64,000 bases of DNA from Clostridiales bacterium (GTDB lineage Bacteria; Bacillota; Clostridia; Christensenellales; Borkfalkiaceae): NCBI GenBank assembly GCA_015069465.1, contig SVIO01000005.1, positions 1-64,000 of the forward strand. Direction: 5' to 3'. Positions 656 to 36,759 of this stretch are shown piece by piece. The notes below the pieces were generated by a model. That model was not told the DNA's origin and ran no database searches. It saw only the letters and a list, made by a program, of their open reading frames with translations. A program made the position numbers and the translations under genes. The first letter of the stretch is position 1; the number at the start of each line of letters is the position of its first letter.

Positions 656-2725
656 TTATGCTTTTTTACCCATAATCTTTTCAGCAACTGACTTTGGAAC
701 TTCTGCATAGTGAGAGAATTGCATTGTGTAGTTGCCTCTACCTTGTGTTCTTGAACGAAGGTCTGTTGCATAACCGAACATTTCTGCTAGTGGGATATGC
801 GCATCGATAACCTTAACGCCGTTTCTATCATCAGTACCTTGGATAATACCACGACGAGCAGTAACGTTACCCATAAGGTCACCAAAGTAATCATCTGGTG
901 TTACGATTTCAACCTTCATAACAGGTTCAAGAAGAACACTCTTTGCTTTTGCTAAGCCATCTTTAAGAGCCATAGAACCAGCAATCTTAAACGCCATTTC
1001 TGATGAGTCTACATCGTGGTAACTACCATCGTAAACTGTAACTTTGAAGTCAACTACTTCGTAGCCAGCTAAGATACCGTTCTTAGATGCTTCCATAATA
1101 CCCTTGTTGATAGGTTGGATAAATTCCTTAGGAATAGAACCACCAACTGTTTCATCAACGAATTCATAGCCCTTGCCTGCTTCTTGTGGTTCAAGACGAA
1201 TCTTACAGTGACCATATTGACCGTGACCACCTGATTGACGCTTGAACATACCTTCTGCTTCAACTGCTTGTCTAATTGTTTCCTTATAAGAAACTTGTGG
1301 CTTACCAACGTTTGCTTCTACTCTGAATTCTCTTAAGAGTCTATCTACGATAATTTCAAGGTGAAGTTCGCCCATACCAGCGATGATTGTTTGACCTGTT
1401 TCGCCATCTGTATATGTCTTAAATGTTGGGTCTTCTTCTGCAAGTTTTGCAAGAGCAAAGCCCATCTTTTCTTGACCTTGTTTTGTTTTTGGTTCGATAG
1501 CAACTTGGATAACTGGGTCTGGGAATTCCATTTGTTCTAGGATGATTGGTTTGCTTTCATCACACAAAGTATCACCTGTTGTTGTATCTTTTAAACCTAC
1601 TAACGCACAAATTTCACCTGAGTAAACTGCATCAACTTCTTCTCTGTGGTTAGCGTGCATTCTAAGAATACGAGCAACTCTTTCCTTTTTGCCCTTAACA
1701 CTGTTATATACATAAGAACCTGTCTTAAGTACACCAGAGTAAGCACGGAAGAAAGCAAGTTTACCAACGAATGGGTCTGTCATAATCTTAAATGCAAGAC
1801 CACTGAACGCTTCGTCATCTTTTGGTTCTCTCTTTATTTCTTCGCCCTTATCGTTAACACCACTTACAGCACCAACATCAAGTGGGCTTGGTAAGTAATC
1901 AACGATAGCGTCGAGAAGGTTTTGAACGCCCTTGTTTCTATATGAAGAACCACAAAGAACTGGTGTAACTTTCATAGCGAGAGTTGCATCACGCAAGCCC
2001 TTTTTAATTTCTTCAACAGAAAGGTCGCCTTCTTCAAAATATTTTTCCATCAATGCATCATCAGATTCAGCAGCAATTTCAACAACTTGTGCTCTTGCTT
2101 CTTCAACTGCATCTTGCATATCACTTGGAACGTCTTGAATGTCGATTTCTCTTCCTAAGTCATCAAGATAAATGAATGCTTTTCTTGTGATAACATCGAT
2201 GATACCTTTGAATGTATCTTCCTTACCGATAGGAAGGATAATTGGAACAGCGTTTGTATGAAGTCTTTCCTTCATCATTTTGATAGCGTTATCATAGTTA
2301 GCGCCATTGATATCCATCTTATTTACATAAGCGATTCTTGGAACTTTATACTTATCTGCTTGTCTCCAAACAGTTTCACTTTGAGGTTCAACGCCACCCT
2401 TAGCACAGAATGTTGCAACTGCGCCGTCAAGAATACGGAGTGACCTTTCAACTTCTACAGTAAAGTCAACGTGGCCAGGGGTATCAATAATATTTATACG
2501 GTGATTTTTCCAATAGCATGTTGTAGCAGCACTTGTGATTGTAATACCACGCTCTTGTTCTTGAACCATCCAGTCCATAGTAGCGCCACCTTCGTGGGTT
2601 TCGCCGAGCTTGTGTGTCTTACCTGTGTAAAACAAAATTCTTTCAGTAGTAGTTGTTTTACCAGCATCGATGTGCGCCATAATACCTATATTTCTTGTCA
2701 CACCTAAATCAAAATCTCTTGCCAT
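656..2725 (-). CDS. fusA: Elongation factor G
   Basis: Ribosomal translocase GTPase of 689 residues, the usual length. It begins [20 protein letters not shown], with P-loop [10 protein letters not shown]3 DTPGHVDF and G4 NKMD all visible, followed by domains II-V (the [11 protein letters not shown] stretch of domain IV is present). A GGAG ribosome site lies nine bases before the ATG. It follows rpsG by 15 bases, as in the classic str operon, so S12, S7 and EF-G are probably co-translated from one mRNA. No truncation or odd residue was seen. Confidence 0.98.
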
Positions 2726-2740
2726 ATTCGTTCTCCAAAA

Positions 2741-3211
2741 TTAGAATCTATAATGTGCAAAAGCCTTGTTTGCTTCAGCCATTCTATGTGTATCTTCTTT
2801 CTTCTTAACAGCACTACCTGTGTTGTTGAAAGCGTCTACGAGTTCTGCTGCAAGTCTAGAAGCCATTTCTCTTTCGCCTCTCTTTCTTGCTGCTGCAACC
2901 AACCATCTGATTGCAAGTGTTTGTCTTCTTTCAGCACGGATTTCAATTGGAACTTGATAGTTAGCACCACCAACTCTCCTCGCTTTTACTTCTACTAAAG
3001 GCATAATGTTGTTGAGCGCTTGAGCGAACATTTCCTTTGCGTCTTGGCCTACTTTTTCAGCAGCCACTGCAAATGCTTCATAAACAATGCCTTGTGCAAT
3101 GCCCTTTTTACCATCAAGCATAACTTGGTTGATAAGTTTTGTTACAACCTTATCATTATACATTGGGTCTGGCAAAACATCTCTTTTTGCAATATTGCCT
3201 CTTCTTGGCAT
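2741..3211 (-). CDS. rpsG: 30S ribosomal protein S7
   Basis: Primary 16S rRNA-binding protein that nucleates the 30S head. It has 156 residues, starts [20 protein letters not shown] and contains the conserved [15 protein letters not shown] and [13 protein letters not shown] segments. An AAGGAGG ribosome site precedes the ATG. It lies between rpsL and fusA. The 213-base spacer upstream is longer than usual and can fold into several stems (see the separate entry). S7 is the known translational repressor of the str operon in E. coli, so this spacer is a natural place for feedback control; that is inference here. Confidence 0.98.
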
Positions 3212-3255
3212 AATTAAATCCTCCTTTAAATTTTTTGCACTTTTCTTAGTGCCTT

Positions 3256-3382
3256 TAAGGGTAAACCCTTAGTTTAGTACAGCTATCGCTTGCCTTATCA
3301 AATTTAAGGTAGCGAACCTTCTGTCTTTCGACATACTGCCTACCAAATCGGGCTAATTTTCCGAATTCCGATTATAAGTAGG
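3256..3382 (-). promoter_or_regulatory. Structured rpsL-rpsG spacer, candidate S7 control element
   Basis: Within the spacer are three inverted repeats. An outer stem CCTAC (3339-3343) / GTAGG (3378-3382) encloses ATCGG (3347-3351) / CCGAT (3368-3372). AAGGT (3306-3310) pairs with ACCTT (3316-3320). TAAGGG (3256-3261) pairs with CCCTTA (3266-3271) around a four-base loop. E. coli S7 binds the rpsL-rpsG spacer to repress its own operon. The position matches, but I cannot align the folds, so the function is inferred. Confidence 0.4.
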
Positions 3383-3424
3383 TGTCTTAAATTAAATAAG
3401 TTTTTTCTTCTATTTGTTTTTTAC

Positions 3425-3796
3425 TTATTTAGGTCTCTTTGCGCCGTATTTTGACCTTGCTTGACGACGCTTTGCAACGCCTGCTGTGTCAAGAGCGCCA
3501 CGGATAATGTGGTATCTTACACCTGGTAAGTCTTTAACCCTTCCACCACGGATAAGAACAGAGCTGTGTTCTTGAAGGTTGTGGCCTTCACCTGGGATAT
3601 AAACAATACCTTCAGCTTTATTAGTCAAACGAACACGAGCAATCTTACGAAGCGCTGAGTTAGGCTTCTTTGGAGTTGTTGTTGTTACTGACAAACAAAC
3701 ACCACGCTTTTGTGGACATTCGTCGAGCGCTGGTGACTTTGACTTGTAAGTAATGTTCTTTCTACCTTGTCTGATTAACTGTTGAATTGTTGGCAT
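3425..3796 (-). CDS. rpsL: 30S ribosomal protein S12
   Basis: Decoding-centre protein of 123 residues. The start is the ATG of [13 protein letters not shown], chosen because a GGAGGTG ribosome site sits just upstream and the usual S12 length results; an earlier in-frame start 35 codons upstream has no family match. The streptomycin-relevant segments [12 protein letters not shown] and [13 protein letters not shown] carry the wild-type lysines, so no classical rpsL resistance change is visible. It lies 197 bases after rpoC, behind its own promoter. The L7Ae-like gene found between rpoC and rpsL in B. subtilis is absent. Confidence 0.98.
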
Positions 3797-3874
3797 ATCG
3801 CACCTCCTTAAATTATTTCGGATATTCAGAAAACGGATTCGGAAACTTCCGTCAATGAAACAAATTTTGCTTTT

Positions 3875-3939
3875 TTCAGTGGGCGTTTTTATTTTGCCCA
3901 CTGAATTATTATTTTACCATTTATTGTCGGTTTAGTCAA
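3875..3939 (-). promoter_or_regulatory. rpsL promoter with a hairpin at the predicted RNA 5' end
   Basis: On the minus strand TTGACT (3939-3934) and TAAAAT (3916-3911) are 17 bases apart, predicting transcription from about 3904. A perfect 10-bp stem, TTCAGTGGGC (3875-3884) with GCCCACTGAA (3896-3905), would begin almost exactly at the first transcribed base. No U-run follows on this strand, so it is not a terminator for rpoC. A 5'-terminal stem of this kind could stabilise the ribosomal-protein mRNA. Confidence 0.6.
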
Positions 3940-3993
3940 ATAAAATGTACCATTTTCTTGGCTTTTTTATTTGAAAACCTTAATAATTATCTA

Positions 3994-6900
3994 TTATTCA
4001 GCGTCTTGCGCAGGTCTTTGAATTACTGTTTGTGGTGACACGTTTTTGTAATTCTTAATTCCTGTACCTGCTGGAATAAGTTTACCGATAATTACATTTT
4101 CTTTTAAGCCTACAAGTGGGTCAATCTTATTCTTGATTGCGGCTTCTGTTAATACTCTTGCTGTTTCTTGGAATGATGCTGCAGAAAGGAAACTTTCTTT
4201 TGCGAGCGCAGCCTTTGTAATACCAAGAAGAATTCTCTTACCTTGTGGTGGTTCAAGACCATTTTCAAGAGCATTGATTGTTTCTTCTTCAAACCTATGA
4301 ACGTCAAGTTTTTCACCTGGAAGAATATCTGCTCCACCTGGGTTTTCTACTTGAACTTTCTTCATCATTTGACGAACGATGATTTCTACGTGCTTATCGT
4401 TGATATCAACGCCTTGTGAACGGTAAACACTTTGAATTTCTTTAAGGATATAGTCTTGTACGCCCTTGATACCCTTTGTCTTCAAAATGTCTTGTGGATA
4501 TACTGAACCATTTGTTAAAACTGAACCTGGTTCAACTCTATCACCCGTCTTAACGATAACGCCTGTTCCGAAAGGAATTGTATAATCTTCGCTCTTAGAA
4601 CCATCATCTGGCTTAACGATAACGTGAATAATCTTATCTTTTTCTTCGATTTCAACCGTTCCACTGTGTTCGCAAACGATTGCAGCGTGTTTTGGTCTAC
4701 GAGCTTCGAATAATTCTTCAACTCTTGGAAGACCTTGTGTAATATCGCCTGTACTTGCAATACCACCGGTGTGGAATGTTCTCATGGTGAGCTGTGTACC
4801 TGGTTCACCGATTGATTGAGCAGCGATAATACCAACTGCTTCACCAATTTGAACAGGATTGTTGTTTGACATGTTCTTACCATAACACTTAGCACAAACA
4901 CCAGTCTTTGATTTACAAGTGAATATACTTCTAATTTCTACTTGTTCAATGCCAACTTTAACGATTTCATCAGCCATATCTTCATCAATCATTTCGTTAG
5001 CCTTAACCATAACTTCGCCGTTTGTTGGATTTATGATATCTTTAACTGTAAATCTACCAGCGATTCTATCACGAAGCCCTTCGATAATTTCGCCCTTAGA
5101 GCCCTTAATTGCACTAACGACAACACCCTTAACAGCATCGCCTGTGCTTGCGAAACAGTCGTCTTCTTTAATGATAACTTCTTGAGATACGTCAACTAAA
5201 CGACGAGTTAAGTAACCAGAGTCGGCAGTTTTAAGCGCTGTATCGGCAAGACCTTTACGACCACCGTGTGATGAAATAAAGTATTCCAAAACTGAAAGGC
5301 CTTCCCTAAAGCATGACTTAACAGGGATTTCGATAGTTTTACCGTTAGTATCTGTCATAAGACCACGCATACCAGCAAGTTGTTTAATTTGGTCTTTAGA
5401 ACCACGGGCACCAGAGTTTGCCATCATCAAGATTGGGTTGAATTCATCAAGTGAATCCATAAGTTTATCTGTAACGTCTTCTGTTGCTTGTTTCCAGATG
5501 TTAACAACCTTTTTATATCTTTCATCATCAGTGATAAAGCCCTTCTTATAAAGGTTTTCAATCTTAAGCACGTGCTTTTCTGCTTCGCCTAAAATTTCTG
5601 CCTTATCTTTTGGCATATGCATATCGAATACGCTAGTTGTGATAGCACCGATTGTTGAATATTTAAAGCCGAGAGCCTTAACCTTGTCAAGAACATCAGC
5701 AGCACAACTTGCGCCATGACGCTTAAAGCAAGCACCGACAATTTTTTGAAGGTCTTTCTTGCCTGTCAATTTGTCGATTTCATATTTAAGGTAATCTTCC
5801 TTAGTCTTTCTTTGAACAAAACCTAATGTTTGTGGGATTGCTTCGTTGAATATAATCTTACCAACAGAAGTCTTAACTCTGCCTGTGATTACTTCGCCAA
5901 GGGCTTCCACTTGTCTACGAACATAAATTTCATCTTGAAGCCCAATCTTACCTGTTTGATAAGCCATAATTGCTTCTTCTGGTGATGCATAAGAAACGGT
6001 ATATTCTGGAACGCCATAAACTGTGCCGTTTTCATCAGGTCTACCTTTTTCATTATACTTTTCACCAATCTTCTTTCTTAAAATGGTCAAGTAGTATGCA
6101 CCCATAACCATATCTTGTGATGGTGACATAACAGGCTTACCGTCAGAAAGTTTTAAGATGTTGTTTGATGCAAGCATCAAGAACCTTGCTTCTGCTTGTG
6201 CTTCAACTGAAAGTGGAACGTGAACAGCCATTTGGTCACCGTCGAAGTCGGCGTTGAATGCGCCACAAACCAGTGGGTGAAGTTTGATTGCTCTACCTTC
6301 AATAAGAACAGGTTCAAATGCTTGGATTGATAATCTGTGAAGTGTAGGCGCACGGTTGAGCATAACTGGGTGGTCTTTGATAACTTCTTCTAAAACATCC
6401 CAAACTACTGCCTTACCACGCTCTACTGTACGCTTTGCGTTTTTAATGTTGTGGCAAACGTTAGTTTCAACGAGTTTTTTCATAACGAAAGGCTTGAAAA
6501 GTTCAATAGCCATTTCCTTTGGCAAACCACATTGATAAAGTTTAAGTTCTGGTCCTACAACGATAACTGAACGGCCTGAGTAGTCAACACGCTTACCGAG
6601 AAGGTTTTGACGGAAACGACCTTGCTTACCACGAAGCATGCCAGAAAGTGATTTTAATTCACGGTTGCCAGCGCCACTAATTGCTTTGCCACGACGACCA
6701 TTGTCGATGAGAGCGTCAACTGCTTCTTGAAGCATACGCTTTTCATTTCTAATAATGATTTCAGGAGCACCGAGTTCCATTAACTTTTTCAAACGGTTAT
6801 TTCTGTTGATAACCCTTCTATATAAGTCGTTTAAGTCACTCGTTGCAAATCTACCACCATCGAGTTGCACCATTGGGCGAAGTTCTGGTGGGATTACAGG

Positions 6901-7599
6901 AAGAACGTCTAAAATCATCCATTCAGGGCGATTGCCACTCTTTCTAAATGATTCGATAATTTCTATCCTTTTAACTGCTCTAATTCTCTTTTGACCAGAA
7001 GCGTTTTCAGCAATTTCTTTCTTTGTTTCAGCGCTTTCTTTTTCAAGGTCGATAGCCATCAAAAGTTCTTTAATGGCTTCTGCACCCATGCCTGTTTTGA
7101 AAGAACCAGCGCCGTATTGTTCTTCCATTTCAAGTTTTTCTCTGTCGTTAATAACTTGCTTGTATGTTAGTGGTGTTGTACCTGGGTCTAAAACCACGTG
7201 ACAAGCAAAGTATAAAACTTGTTCCAAAGCCTTAGGGCTCATATCGAGCATAAGACCAATTCTTGAAGGAACGCCCTTGAAATACCAAATGTGAGAAACA
7301 GGCGCTGCAAGTTCGATGTGACCTAATCTATCACGGCGAACTTTAGACTTTGTGATTTCAACGCCACACTTGTCGCAAATAACGCCTTTATATCTAATGC
7401 GTTTATATTTACCACAGTGACATTCCCAGTCCTTTGTAGGTCCAAAGATTCTTTCGCAGAAAAGTCCACCCATTTCTGGTTTTTGTGTTCTATAGTTAAT
7501 AGTTTCTGGCTTTGTTACTTCGCCATAAGACCATTCTCTAATTTTTTCGGGAGACGCTACTCCTATTTGTATAGAATCAAAATTGTTAAGTTCAAACAT
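3994..7599 (-). CDS. rpoC: DNA-directed RNA polymerase subunit beta'
   Basis: Catalytic large subunit of RNA polymerase, 1201 residues, full length for Firmicutes. Visible are the N-terminal zinc-binding cluster [20 protein letters not shown], the Mg2+-binding NADFDGD active-site loop, and the second zinc site ending CAKCYG. It ends QRPAQDAE. It follows rpoB by 19 bases with a GGGGG ribosome site in the gap, so the two are co-transcribed and tightly coupled. Nothing irregular was seen. Confidence 0.98.
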
Positions 7600-7618
7600 A
7601 ATTCTCTATCCCCCTTTA

Positions 7619-10600
7619 TTATTCCTCATCCTCAAATTCAAGTTCTTCGTCATCATCGTCGAACATATCATCATCTGGAATTGTTGTGTCTATTTCATCA
7701 TCGTCATCTTCAAACATATCTTTAGTGAAATTAAATTCATCATCAATTTCAACAGATTCGCTATCTTCGAAGATTGTTTCAGGAATATCGCCTTCGATTT
7801 CGTCAAGTTCAACTTCTTCACGAGTATCTTTTTCACGAACGTAAGGCATATCATCGATATCCCCTTCGATAAGGTCTTTAAGAGCAAGTTCTTCTTTGTT
7901 TTCTGTGAGCACTTTCATATCGAGTGCCAAAGATTGTAATTCTTTTAATAATACCTTAAATGCTTCTGGGATACCAGGTTCGCTGATATTTGTTCCTTTA
8001 ACGATTGATTCGTATGTCTTAACCCTACCAACGATATCGTCAGACTTAACGGTTAAGATTTCTTGTAAGATGTGCGCTGCGCCGTATGCTTCAAGCGCCC
8101 AAATTTCCATTTCACCGAAACGTTGTCCACCGAATTGCGCCTTACCACCCAAAGGTTGTTGTGTAACAAGGCTGTATGGACCTGTTGAACGTGCGTGAAT
8201 CTTATCGTCAACCAAGTGGATAAGTTTAATCATATACATTTGACCAACAGTAACTCTGTTTTCAAATGGTTCGCCCGTTCTACCATCGTAAAGTTGAATC
8301 TTACCATCAACTTCGCCGTCTGGGTTAACTATATTGTTTTCTTTTAATAATTCTCTAATATCGCTTTCAGTTGCGCCGTCGAATACAGGTGTTGCAATCT
8401 TCCAGCCGAGTTGTTTACATACTAAACCTAAGTGCACTTCAAGAACTTGACCGATGTTCATACGAGATGGAACGCCGAGTGGGTTAAGTACGATTTGAAG
8501 TGGTGTACCATCAGCCATAAATGGCATATCTGATTCTGGTAAAATCCTTGAGATAACACCCTTGTTTCCGTGACGACCAGCCATCTTGTCACCGATGCTA
8601 ATCTTTCTCTTTTGAGCGATATATACTCTAACGAGTTTGTTTACACCTGGAGATAATTCGTCTTTATTTGCACGAGTAAAGATTTTAACGTCAACAACGA
8701 TACCACCCTCGCCGTGTGGAACTTTTAGAGATGTATCTCTAACTTCTCTTGCCTTTTCACCAAAGATTGCTCTTAAGAGTCTTTCTTCTGGTGTGAGTTC
8801 TGTTTCGCCCTTAGGTGTAACCTTACCAACGAGAATATCGCCACTGTTAACTTCTGCACCGATTCTAACGATACCGTTTTCATCTAAGTCTTTAAGCGCA
8901 TCTTCGCCAACGTTTGGAATATCTCTTGTAATTTCTTCTTCACCAAGGCGAGTATCTCTCGCTTCGATTTCGTGTTCTTCGATGTGAATTGTTGTAAATA
9001 CGTCTTCACGAACGAGTTTTTCTGAAAGCAAGATAGCATCTTCGTAGTTATAACCTTCCCAACTCATAAAGCCGACTAAGATGTTGCGACCGAGCGCAAG
9101 TTCGCCGTTTTTAGTTGATGGGCCGTCTGCGATAGTTTGTCCTTTTTCAATTCTTTCGCCCTTATCAACGATTGGTCTTTGATTTAGGCAAGTTCCTTGG
9201 TTAGAACGCTCAAATTTCTTAAGTGTATATTGTCTTAAGTTTCCGTCATCTTCCTTAATAACGATAAGGTCACTTGCAACACTTTCAACAACGCCGGCGT
9301 TTACAGCGTTTACCATAACGCCTGAGTCGTAAGCGATTCTTCTTTCAATACCGGTTGCAACTATAGCATTTTCTGGGCAAAGTAGTGGAACGGCTTGACG
9401 TTGCATGTTAGAGCCCATGAGTGCACGGTTGGTATCGTCGTTTTCTAAGAACGGAATAAGTGCTGTTGCGACAGATATAAGTTGTTTTGGTGAAACATCC
9501 ATATAATCCATCTTTTCTTTAACATCTTCGGTAATTTCATCTCTGTGTCTACAAGAAACACGGTCATTAGCGAAGTATTTGTTATCGATAAGTGGTTCGT
9601 TTGCTTGTGCAACGATGTAGTTATCTTCTTCATCAGCAGTCAAGTATTCAACTTGTTCTGTAACGATAGTTTGCATATTGCCATTTTCATCAAGCACGTG
9701 CTCCACCTTTCTATAAGGCGATTCGATAAAGCCGAATTCGTTTACCTTAGCATAAGCAGCGAGTGATGAGATAAGACCGATGTTTTGTCCTTCAGGTGTT
9801 TCGATAGGACACATTCTGCCATAGTGAGAGTGGTGAACGTCACGAACGTCAAACGTTGCTCTATCTCTATTCAAACCACCAGGGCCGAGAGCAGAAAGTT
9901 TTCTCTTGTGCGTGAGTTCGGCAATTGGGTTTGTTTGGTCCATAAATTGTGATAATTGTGATGAACCAAAGAATTCCTTGATAGCAGAACTTACAGGTCT
10001 AACATTTATTAAACCTTGTGGAGAAACATCTTTAGGGTCTTGAGTTGCCATTCTTTCTTTGATAACTCTTTCAAGTCTTGCAACACCGATTCTAAATTGG
10101 TTTTGAAGTAATTCGCCAACTGAACGAACACGACGGTTACCTAAGTGGTCGATATTGTCAACAGTATTGATATCAAATGCTAAGTCTAAGTTTACAGAAA
10201 CTGAAGCAACGATATCATCAACAGTGATGTGTTTATGATTTAATTTTTCAACAAGTGGACGGATTGTCTTTCTTGTTTCAGCATCCAATCTTTCTGGAAT
10301 ATCGCCACTTTCGATAATATCATAATAGCAAAGACAAGCATTGATGAACTTAGTTCTAATTTCAAGTGCCTTTTCTTCGTTCTTCTTATCTTCTGGCTTT
10401 TCTTCACCACTTGGAATTTGCTTTTCTTCAAGATAGAACATTGCGTTGATTTGTTCTTTTAAGATTTCAGCAGTTTTTTCAACGCCGTTTTCTTTTGCAG
10501 TTTGATATACAACCTTAGAAAATTCTAGGGTTGGGAAATAAACGTACTTTAATAAACCAAAGCAGTCTGGATTGATTCCTGTAACTTCTTTGTAGTTTAC

Positions 10601-11629
10601 AACGTTGTTAGAAATAATTTTATGTCTTTCGCCATTAACGTCAGCAACGAAAGTGCTAATACCTGCGTTTTGGATTTGTTCAGCAATAGGCTTTGAAATC
10701 TTTTGACCTTTTGTAGCCAAAACTTCGCCATCACTTGTAATGATGTCGTCTGCGCTAACTAAGCCAACGATTCTTGCACCGAGCCTTAATCTTCTGTTAA
10801 ATTTATATCTACCAACTCTTGCAAGGTCATATCTTCTTGCATCGAAGAATAAGTTTTTAAGATGTTGCTTAACTGCTTCTTCTGTTGGGATTTCACCTGG
10901 ACGCAAACGGCGATATAACTCGATAAGGCCATCGCTTTCAGATTTAGAAGTATCCTTTTCAGCAGTATCTAAAATCATCTTGTTGCCTTCAAAGAGTTCG
11001 TTTAGGGCATCATCGCTACCAAAACCTAAAGCCCTTAAAAGAACTGTAGCAGTAAGTTTTCTCGTTCTGTCAACATGCACCCACAAAACGTTTTGTGAAT
11101 CTTGTTCAAACTCAAGCCAAGCACCCCTTGAAGGGATAACAGTAGTGTCGAAAAGGCGTCTACCAGACTTGTCCATTTCAGAGCCGTTATAAACGCCTGG
11201 AGAACGAACGAGTTGAGAAACGATAACTCTTTCAGCACCGTTGATAATAAACGAGCCGTTGTCTGTCATAAGTGGGAAATCGCCCATAAATACTTCTTGG
11301 TCGATAACTTCATCAGTCACTTTATTAACAAGTCTAACTTTAACTTTAAGTGGGCGAGCGTAAGTAGCATCTCTATCCCTGCACTCTTTTTCATCGTACT
11401 TTGGCTTACCATCAAGGTTGTAATCTAAGAAATAGAGTTCAAAGTGGTCAGAATAGTCTGTGATTGGTGAAAAATCTTCTAAGACCTCGCCTATGCCATC
11501 TTTAATAAAAGCGTCATAAGAGTCTTTTTGAATTTTGACAAGATAAGGAAGTTCGATTGCTTCTTTAATTTTGCTAAAAGTTCTTCTTTTAACCTTGCCA
11601 CATTCAATTTCAGGTAAAATTCGTGTCAT
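7619..11629 (-). CDS. rpoB: DNA-directed RNA polymerase subunit beta, with a long acidic tail
   Basis: RNA polymerase beta subunit, 1336 residues from the ATG of [18 protein letters not shown]. That start has an AAGGAG site at proper distance; an upstream in-frame start 34 codons earlier lies in the leader. The rifampicin-region segment [20 protein letters not shown], followed by LSALGPGG, has the sensitive-type residues. The last 66 residues (about 1271-1336) form a strongly acidic extension, 37 of 66 being Asp or Glu, beyond the conserved end of the family. No rplJ-rplL genes lie upstream; the neighbour is the divergent rqcP. Confidence 0.97.
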
Positions 11630-20416: not shown

Positions 20417-20492
20417 CTGCCATTAGCTCAGTTGGTAGAGCACCTGACTCTTAATCAGGGTGTCCGGGGTTCGAGTCCCCGATGGCGGACCA
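20417..20492 (+). tRNA. tRNA-Lys (anticodon CTT)
   Basis: Acceptor CTGCCAT pairs with ATGGCGG (C1:G72, T2:G71), the anticodon stem CCTGA/TCAGG presents CTT, and CCA is encoded. The bases AGTCCCCGATGGCG (20474-20487) near its 3' end recur in the repeats downstream. Confidence 0.95.
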
Positions 20493-20499
20493 AAAAAAG

Positions 20500-20528
20500 G
20501 CAAGAACTTTTGTTCTTGCTTTTTTTTG
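20500..20528 (+). terminator. Terminator of the tRNA cluster
   Basis: GCAAGAAC (20500-20507) and GTTCTTGC (20512-20519) flank a TTTT loop and are followed by eight T. Confidence 0.93.
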
Positions 20529-20537
20529 TTTGTTTAA

Positions 20538-21023
20538 GGGGACGAGAATATGGAGAAAATTGCTGAAAGCAATTTGTCCGTAGGACTAAACAGTGGTCAC
20601 CCACTGTTTATCGGGTAGGTCGCACAGGCGAGAGTCACCGATGGCGATATGTTTTTTCTTAAAATTAAACTTTCGATACTTTTTGCGAGTTTTTATTTTT
20701 GCTGATACTCTTTAGGGTATCGGTATTTTTTTATTCTTCGGGGACGAGAATATGGAGAAAATTTGATTTATCAAAGCTCACCCTCACAAAAAAGCTTTTG
20801 CTAAGCAAAATTTTTTTGTGATAAGGAAAAGCAACGAAACGATTTTATGTTTTGCCTTTGCCAAAACATTTTGAGTGAAGTTTGCTTTGACGCAGTCCCC
20901 GATGGCGATATGTTTTTTCTTAAAATTAAACTTTCGATACTTTTTGCGAGTTTTTATTTTTGCTGATACTCTTTAGAGTGCTAGTATTTTTTTATTCTTC
21001 ATAAACGAGAATATGGAGAAAAT
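20538..21023 (+). repeat. Hairpin-rich tandem element 3' of the tRNA cluster, with tRNA-Lys 3'-end copies
   Basis: Two full units and a third left boundary of an apparently non-coding repeat. Each unit opens with a 24-base block (GGGGACGAGAATATGGAG then AAAATT) at 20538-20561 and 20740-20763; a shortened third opening lies at 21004-21023. Each full unit closes with an identical 78-base block (20638-20715 and 20899-20976, 261 bases apart). The interiors differ but are each a string of stem-loops: AAATTGCT/AGCAATTT, GTCC/GGAC and AAACAGTGG/CCACTGTTT in the first; TTTGAT/ATCAAA, TCACAAAAAA/TTTTTTTGTGA and ATGTTTTG/CAAAACAT in the second. In the second unit CGGGGAC and GTCCCCG at the boundaries pair with each other. 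The closing block of unit 2 starts inside AGTCCCCGATGGCG (20894-20907), identical to 14 bases of tRNA-Lys(CTT); unit 1 has one mismatch (20633-20646). No open frame fits. Confidence 0.8.
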
Positions 21024-25481: not shown

Positions 25482-25494
25482 AAGAATAAAAAAA

Positions 25495-25780
25495 CAAAGC
25501 CATATAGCCTTGCATTGTATAATAAAATTTAAGGTTCCCAAAAATTGTCGAAGAAGTTTTTGGGATAAAGGAAAAGCAGGCTTAAAGTCATTGCTTTTTT
25601 AGAAATAAAAAAAGCAAGACCATATAGCCTTGCTTTTCCGTGGAACTGGTGACGGGTAATTCCCCTAATAGGGGAAATGTCTCTAAAGAGACAAAGGGGT
25701 TGCCGTCCCACGCTAGTGGATTGAACCGTGGGTGAAAGTCCCGTCATTTTAAAAGAAAAACAAGGCATAAAGCCTTGTTT
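25495..25780 (-). repeat. Hairpin-rich element 3' of tRNA-Thr, with a copy of the tRNA 3' end
   Basis: Read on the minus strand, tRNA-Thr is followed by a terminator-like stem (about 25753-25780), a compact multi-hairpin block, and then a near copy of the tRNA 3' end (25641-25656; 15 of 16 bases match 25783-25798). After that copy comes another terminator-like stem, AAAAGCAAG/CTTGCTTTT (about 25612-25636). The block is bounded by TGACGGG (25650-25656) and CCCGTCA (25740-25746). It contains stems TTCCCC/GGGGAA, TGTCTCT/AGAGACA (25678-25693) and CCCACG/CGTGGG (25707-25732). Further out lie a CCCAAAAA/TTTTTGGG stem near 25537-25562 and a 14-base direct repeat, CCATATAGCCTTGC, at 25500 and 25620. 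No protein frame is credible. Confidence 0.75.
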
Positions 25781-25782
25781 TT

Positions 25783-25858
25783 TGGAGCTGGTGACGGGAC
25801 TTGAACCTGCGACCTGCTGATTACGAATCAGCTGCTCTACCGACTGAGCCACACCAGC
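25783..25858 (-). tRNA. tRNA-Thr (anticodon CGT)
   Basis: Acceptor GCTGGTG pairs with CACCAGC, the anticodon stem GCTGA/TCAGC presents CGT, T-loop TTCAAGT is regular, and CCA is encoded. Confidence 0.96.
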
Positions 25859-36427: not shown

Positions 36428-36759
36428 ACGGATGAAATTGAACTTGTTGGTCATAATCTAACTTATTTTAAGTGCTTAGATGCGAACAAGATAAGGCAAC
36501 ACCTACTACCTATTTTAAGCAGTTAGAAGCGAGTTGCAGAAGGCTCGCTTATCAAAACGGATGAAATTGACCTTGTTGGTCATAATCTAACTTATTTTAA
36601 GTGCTTAGATGCGAACAAGATAAGGCAACACCTACTACCTATTTTAAGCAGTTAGAAGCGAGTTGCAGAAGGCTCGCTTATCAAAACGGATGAAATAGAC
36701 CGTCTGGTCATTGAAGTCGTTTTGATAAAGCAGTAAACGACCTGCAACGATGTTTATAA
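36428..36759. repeat. 129-bp tandem repeat ending in a 98-nt structured repeat
   Basis: Two nearly identical 129-bp units begin with ACGGATGAAATTGA at 36428 and 36557. A third start at 36686 runs into different sequence. Each unit contains the stem AAGCGAG/CTCGCTT. The last part (36662-36759) is a 98-nt block found again at 40937-41034. It folds with outer GTTGCAG/CTGCAAC, middle TTATCAAAACG/CGTTTTGATAA and inner GACC/GGTC stems. Because 129 is a multiple of three some frames stay open across units, but each is broken by stops. I regard the block as non-coding. Confidence 0.8.

Follow-up and report, generated by a model that had tools for sequence, protein, structure and literature searches.

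Hairpin blocks with tRNA-matched arms behind tRNA genes of a Clostridiales bacterium and its relatives

Behind tRNA-Thr(cgt) in a 64,000-nucleotide stretch of a Clostridiales bacterium (Christensenellales, Borkfalkiaceae; GenBank assembly GCA_015069465.1, contig SVIO01000005.1, positions 1 to 64,000, hereafter the window) lies a gene-less hairpin block that is one copy of a large family. Members of this family carry arms specific to the tRNA they follow, occupy sites that are empty in other genomes, occur as tandem units and in places enclose cargo genes between their copies. The block is read here, with a probability of roughly 0.45, as a small cassette that was inserted site-specifically and, like the rest of its family, is anchored on a tRNA 3′ end.

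The anchor gene, tRNA-Thr(cgt), was located at 25783–25858 on the minus strand (ARAGORN and Rfam), and all further parts of the block were read on the same strand. A terminator-like stem, T′, follows immediately 3′ of the tRNA (25757–25782, stem 25760–25778; sequence and fold). The left arm TGACGGGACTT (25736–25746; sequence, tRNA match and permutation) is the exact reverse complement of AAGTCCCGTCA in the tRNA and spans, reverse-complemented, the 3′ half of the T-loop, the 3′ strand of the T-stem and nucleotides 1–2 of the acceptor strand. The class A core (25657–25727), delimited from family members, stem counts and alignment, is ordered GGTTCAATCC, hairpin H1 with a TAGC loop (25708–25719), GACGGCAACCCCTTTGTC, hairpin H2 (25679–25692) and hairpin H3 (25660–25676). 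It is followed by the right arm together with a copy of the tRNA 3′ end, CCCGTCACCAGTTCCA (25641–25656; sequence and shuffle score), which matches the tRNA end CCCGTCACCAGCTCCA at 15/16 positions. What the block copies of tRNA-Thr(cgt) is its T-loop, T-stem, acceptor 3′ strand and CCA. A second terminator-like stem, T (25607–25639; sequence), resembles T′ at this locus. Additional stems further downstream (25490–25600; sequence) comprise a third terminator-like copy and a TCCCAAAAACTTCTTCGACAATTTTTGGGA hairpin; similar hairpins were also seen behind tRNA-Leu(taa) and at two further loci (L045 and L059).

Sequence downstream of tRNA-Thr(cgt) gave a direct-copy score of 13 and a reverse-complement score of 11, each reached by 1 in 1400 shuffles. 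The wider region folded as RNA with a z of −10.8 against shuffles, and the block alone, folded as single-stranded DNA (ssDNA), closed exactly on TGACGGG/CCCGTCA (z = −4.3 against shuffles). Among Rfam families, only tRNAs exceeded the gathering score in the window. The arms matching the tRNA tail, the three stems, the 15/16 copy and the terminators, all described in the original prediction from the letters alone, were confirmed by coordinates, shuffles and folds. Chance, against which that prediction had argued from an architecture shared with an array near 20.5 kb, is ruled out by the shuffles together with the family. That array is anchored on tRNA-Lys(ctt) (20417–20492, plus strand; ARAGORN). 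Its unit 1 (20528–20648, plus strand) is a class B block matched by class B model R1 at E 1.1e-20, with the tail copy CCGATGGCG near 20638, and unit 2 (20740–20907, plus strand; sequence) has another interior and the tail copy AGTCCCCGATGGCG at 20894–20907. Array and block had been held to be unrelated in sequence, and they do belong to different core classes, B and A, respectively; composite B+A blocks also occur, as at L051 behind tRNA-Leu(tag) of the window genome, where a single block unites the two classes.

At least five sequence classes of core (A–E) were distinguished. Class A, that of the window block, reads GACNGCAACCCYTTTGTC..GACATTTCCCC..GGGGAAT; class B, which takes in the 20.5-kb locus, reads GGAGAAAATTGC..GTCGCACAGGCG; class C terminates in GGGAGGCTCGAGAG; D and E are further types, E containing ..GTAG..CGGAGA.. 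The class A core is present in at least 19 of the 44 genomes of the genus. Its copies there mostly have a tRNA upstream on the same strand, usually 26–250 nt off (Leu, Thr, Pro, Ser, Glu, Arg, Met or Lys), and the 3′ end of that very tRNA follows almost every tRNA-linked copy. About a dozen tRNAs carry blocks in the genome of the window, including Thr-cgt, Leu-tag, Leu-caa, Leu-taa, Ser-gct, Ser-tga, Glu-ctc and Arg-cct, two-unit arrays behind Lys-ctt and Gly-ccc, and a partial block behind Ser-cga at a contig end. For two other genomes, a tail copy was recorded at 17 of 57 tRNAs examined, a figure that includes two counts from stretches that overlap and one count that represents a 5.2-kb island. 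A class B covariance model, run over 151 genomes of the order, returned new loci in the window genome, in one further genome (G014) and in a single genus of a different family; all those within reach of a tRNA were situated immediately 3′ of it and had its tail (Leu, Ser, Glu, Arg). This model contained arm columns and was not fully tRNA-blind, and the tRNA identities of the new loci were new to it. A viral origin of the blocks was rejected: the class A motif was found in one viral contig only and the class B and C motifs in none, phage records gave no match to the A and B cores, and plasmid records none to the A core. The same GCAACCCCTTTGTC..GACATTTCCCCTA motif, joined to another right part, was seen in inverted pairs at two loci (L170, Comamonadaceae; L185; unrelated proteobacterial record) and is possibly a distant relative or a convergence.

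Across 36 filled loci, the left arm fits its own tRNA better than other tRNAs (permutation 0/10000), and in 16 class B and C blocks it pairs with the block's own right arm (0/20000). The left-arm match is not universal, some class A and E copies having no clear left arm. In class B (11 loci), cores are 81% identical versus 49% for the adjoining tails. The arms covary with the tRNA and the core is constant. A direct count of the H1 and H2 stems of class A revealed that they differ in sequence yet remain paired, and an alignment of class B likewise gave core stems that vary while keeping their pairing; RNAalifold reported little covariation for the class A alignment because the H1 stem was misaligned in it. 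Five blocks fold as ssDNA closing on the tRNA-matched arms. Conserved hairpins with compensating stems, the RNA fold of the tRNA-Thr(cgt) region (z −10.8) and the constant position behind tRNAs could also suit a regulatory RNA in the tRNA 3′ trailer, whose antisense T-arm, pairing with either the tRNA or the tail copy, would control tRNA maturation or readthrough. Such a role is improbable, as the blocks sit past a terminator-like stem, most tRNAs and most orthologues have no block, at least five cores are unrelated, and kilobases of genes interrupt.

Comparison of the orthologous tRNA-Thr(cgt) locus in relatives, proposed in the original prediction, uncovered an empty site, consisting of the tRNA and one terminator, in about 15 relatives and blocks with other interiors in about nine others. 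The relatives are therefore not all filled, and the tRNA-like copy is kept, matching each block's own tRNA. Where the locus is filled, blocks of class A, B, C, E or other types were found, as were tandem arrays of 154-, 157- and 198-bp units. Tail-copy scores were bimodal, at 13–25 for filled and at most about 8 for empty sites. Identity between the near and the far tail copy usually ends 0–7 nt beyond the CCA, as the identity blocks of attL/attR sites likewise do just past it. In tandem arrays the entire unit is repeated, terminator included. Plain duplication of the terminator was rejected because it leaves left arm and core unexplained. A similar but distinct array was observed in another family of the order (L215, genome G041), where tRNA-Thr(cgt) is followed by three 157-bp units, each with a full T-arm and tail copy.

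Gene cassettes were found between block copies at two loci. Behind tRNA-Ser(gct) of one relative and upstream of glnA (L223), four tail copies separate three cassettes, one with an HNH-domain protein, a methyltransferase and a 399-amino-acid (aa) protein, one with an XRE-type regulator, and one with a D12 DNA methyltransferase, a PD-(D/E)XK-like protein and a CAP12/Pycsar-type TIR protein. At L295, behind tRNA-Asn(gtt), two full terminator/block/tail copies enclose a 2.96-kb cassette, which encodes a DUF4379 protein with a weak restriction endonuclease (REase)-like match and a second gene product. The defence-like cargo was mapped to L223 8530–9393 and 6791–8408 and to L295 593–2986 (CAP12/Pycsar TIR, D12 methyltransferase/PD-(D/E)XK-like nuclease, DUF4379/REase-like).

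Ordinary tRNA-targeting islands or prophages might have left all this behind as scars, the tail copies being attR remnants and the hairpins unrelated accumulated repeats. Integrase-bearing elements do leave tRNA copies at such loci (the L222 prophage at tRNA-Arg(acg), and islands in L268, L270 and L309), and tRNA fragments left behind by elements are known (PMC9897764). However, the island copies begin further 5′ than the block copies (at least 25 nt, full T-arm), and the same core with matching left arms stands behind at least eight tRNA identities, which scars would not bring about. The scar explanation is largely refuted by the arm covariation and is held to be quite unlikely. The L222 prophage itself (G031:C60, about 1800–11300) is inovirus-like, is integrated at tRNA-Arg(acg) just before a C+A composite block, and encodes a rep-like protein, a Zot-like ATPase and a 365-aa tyrosine integrase (functions assigned by eye). 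Behind tRNA-Arg(cct) of the window genome (L333), a 1.4-kb insert that carries a longer copy of the tRNA 3′ end as well as a 168-aa open reading frame precedes a class B block and was read as an ordinary island stacked on it. Elsewhere in the window, a tandem repeat of a 129-bp unit (2.1 copies, 98% identity) was recorded at 36428–36701.

Under the cassette reading, a unit would combine a tRNA tail and a terminator with a left arm that is the complement of the T-arm, and would be completed by a core of variable hairpins and the junction with the resident tail. It would insert into the T-loop or the 3′ strand of the T-stem; the tRNA would stay intact because the element brings an identical tail, and the displaced resident tail and terminator would remain as the distal copy. 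The element end may act like an integron attC site, as a multi-hairpin ssDNA structure closed by the two arms and perhaps recognised in this folded form by a recombinase acting in trans, which would explain why the left arm covaries with the tRNA and why interiors are exchangeable. Repeated insertion, if the events ran in this direction, would give tandem arrays, and gene-carrying units would give arrays of cargo cassettes. This reading is favoured since complementary, tRNA-matched arms with a free interior are what a folded single-strand recombination site needs, and arrays and cargo fit it. More tentatively, the blocks could form a gene-capture system with tRNA genes as many parallel primary sites, in which folded ssDNA hairpins acquire tRNA-matching arms, a single core is thereby open to reprogramming for any tRNA, and arrays of cargo, defence-like genes among it, build up behind the tRNAs. 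Should this mechanism be right, tRNA 3′ ends in a genus of gut and rumen Clostridia would serve as scattered integron-like platforms on which defence genes gather, and searches for such cargo could reuse the hairpins as a signature. The arms also raise the question of how a short non-coding element rewrites its ends for a new tRNA target.

Several findings weigh against the cassette reading. No recombinase was tied to the blocks, and the only Phage_integrase (PF00589) gene of the window genome is XerS-like and distant from them. The R boxes of attC sites (RYYYAAC / GTTRRRY) were not recognised at the junctions by eye, without an attC model; the arms read, for example, GGGACTT..AAGTCCC. Class A cores are common away from tRNAs in other Clostridia. 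The junction lies in the T-loop for classes B and C and in the T-stem for A and E, a class dependence that a single crossover point would not predict. Finally, in one clean case behind tRNA-Leu(gag) at L303, exactly 78 nt including the terminator are duplicated up to the start of the left arm, which is more like a long target duplication.

No mobilising enzyme was found among further candidates. The XerS-like protein scored 62.7 bits on the NCBIfam model integrase_gron against a cut-off of 265 and does not qualify as an integron integrase, and the gene-less units carry no integrase of their own. Reverse transcriptase (RT, PF00078), Y1 transposase (PF01797), TnpB (PF07282), IS110 (PF02371) and Cas1 (PF01867) were absent from the window genome, a search that did not extend to serine recombinases or DDE transposases; IS110 bridge RNA, Cas1, RT and Y1 were rejected as movers on account of these missing genes. 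A TnpB guide RNA, with the tail as guide and GTTC as target-adjacent motif, has attractive geometry but was dropped because the genome has no TnpB. Relatives hold more recombinases. Y1 transposase occurs in 6 and Cas1 in 3 of the 44 genus genomes, and the Y1 loci (L207–L213) are not flanked by blocks, save for a single class C block (L213), for which no link to the truncated Y1 gene there can be made. Tyrosine recombinases of about 305 aa were observed 0.3–6 kb behind tRNA-Leu genes of several relatives (L275, L273, L276, L277), adjoining lipoprotein genes where DNA was read; they are missing from the window genome, and their link to blocks is inconsistent.

The main rival to the cassette reading is a hairpin transposon, similar to miniature inverted-repeat transposable elements (MITEs) or repetitive extragenic palindromic (REP) sequences, that inserts at or near hairpins including tRNA T-arms. 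Insertion would duplicate tail and terminator and invert the T-arm copy by fold-back, the arms being taken from the target. The class A motif GCAACCCYTTTGTC..GACATTTCCCC is indeed often met as a palindromic repeat in many Clostridia from gut and rumen (L092–L206, GTDB contigs), mostly not at tRNAs and nested in other palindromes, some copies with locus-specific outer inverted repeats; yet these outer repeats are often weak (14% in the top 5% of the outer-palindrome test). The D-I-D pattern of L303, with its exact duplication breaking at the arm, agrees with a transposon, and the composite A-in-B blocks suggest nesting. Terminators can be cited on both sides, as near and far copies are alike in several non-tandem loci, the window included, but unrelated at several loci whose tail copy is perfect. 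Cargo genes between copies and the lack of Y1, IS110, TnpB, RT and Cas1 in the window genome speak against it. A transposon is considered possible and less probable than cassettes; species-level genomes do not separate the two.

Compared with known systems, the blocks resemble integrons in a folded multi-hairpin site with complementary arms and a variable interior, in empty units, in a fixed primary site, and in cassette arrays with cargo (here defence genes) separated by folded sites, as in the L223 array and the L295 cassette, where a block terminates the cassettes as attC does in integrons. They differ in that a tRNA gene takes the place of attI as primary site, with many such sites per genome, and in that the arms match each tRNA's T-arm instead of R″/R′ boxes; by the tests run they are not an integron (no IntI found, R boxes not seen by eye). 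With tRNA-targeting islands, integrative and conjugative elements, prophages and tycheposons they share insertion at the tRNA 3′ end, a direct repeat of that end on both sides with the tRNA intact and a distal partial copy, serial accretion, and an identity block that stops just past the CCA; crossover sites in the T-loop are known, for example, from mycobacteriophage Ms6 (PMC1762012). Unlike such islands, the blocks are gene-less units of about 130–200 bp, mostly with an inverted T-arm copy and with one core for many tRNAs. RAYT-mobilised REPs, MITEs and IS200/IS605 derivatives are similarly short and multi-copy with conserved hairpins, and class A is dispersed in Clostridia, but block arms are adapted to the tRNA, the tRNA tail is duplicated and the window genome has no Y1 transposase. 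Casposons, through Cas1-type integration, likewise insert at the 3′ ends of tRNAs, where they duplicate 14–15 bp of the target; the block duplication is about 20 nt or more, and neither Cas1 in the window genome nor casposon genes were found. By the tests run, the blocks are not a REP/RAYT, IS110, TnpB or casposon system, and not simply island scars. In the open literature, with subscription journals and preprints outside the search, no description of this tRNA-matched hairpin architecture was found. As far as could be found, a tRNA-matched inverted arm, interchangeable cores and cassette arrays on many tRNAs are the features that set the blocks apart as new.
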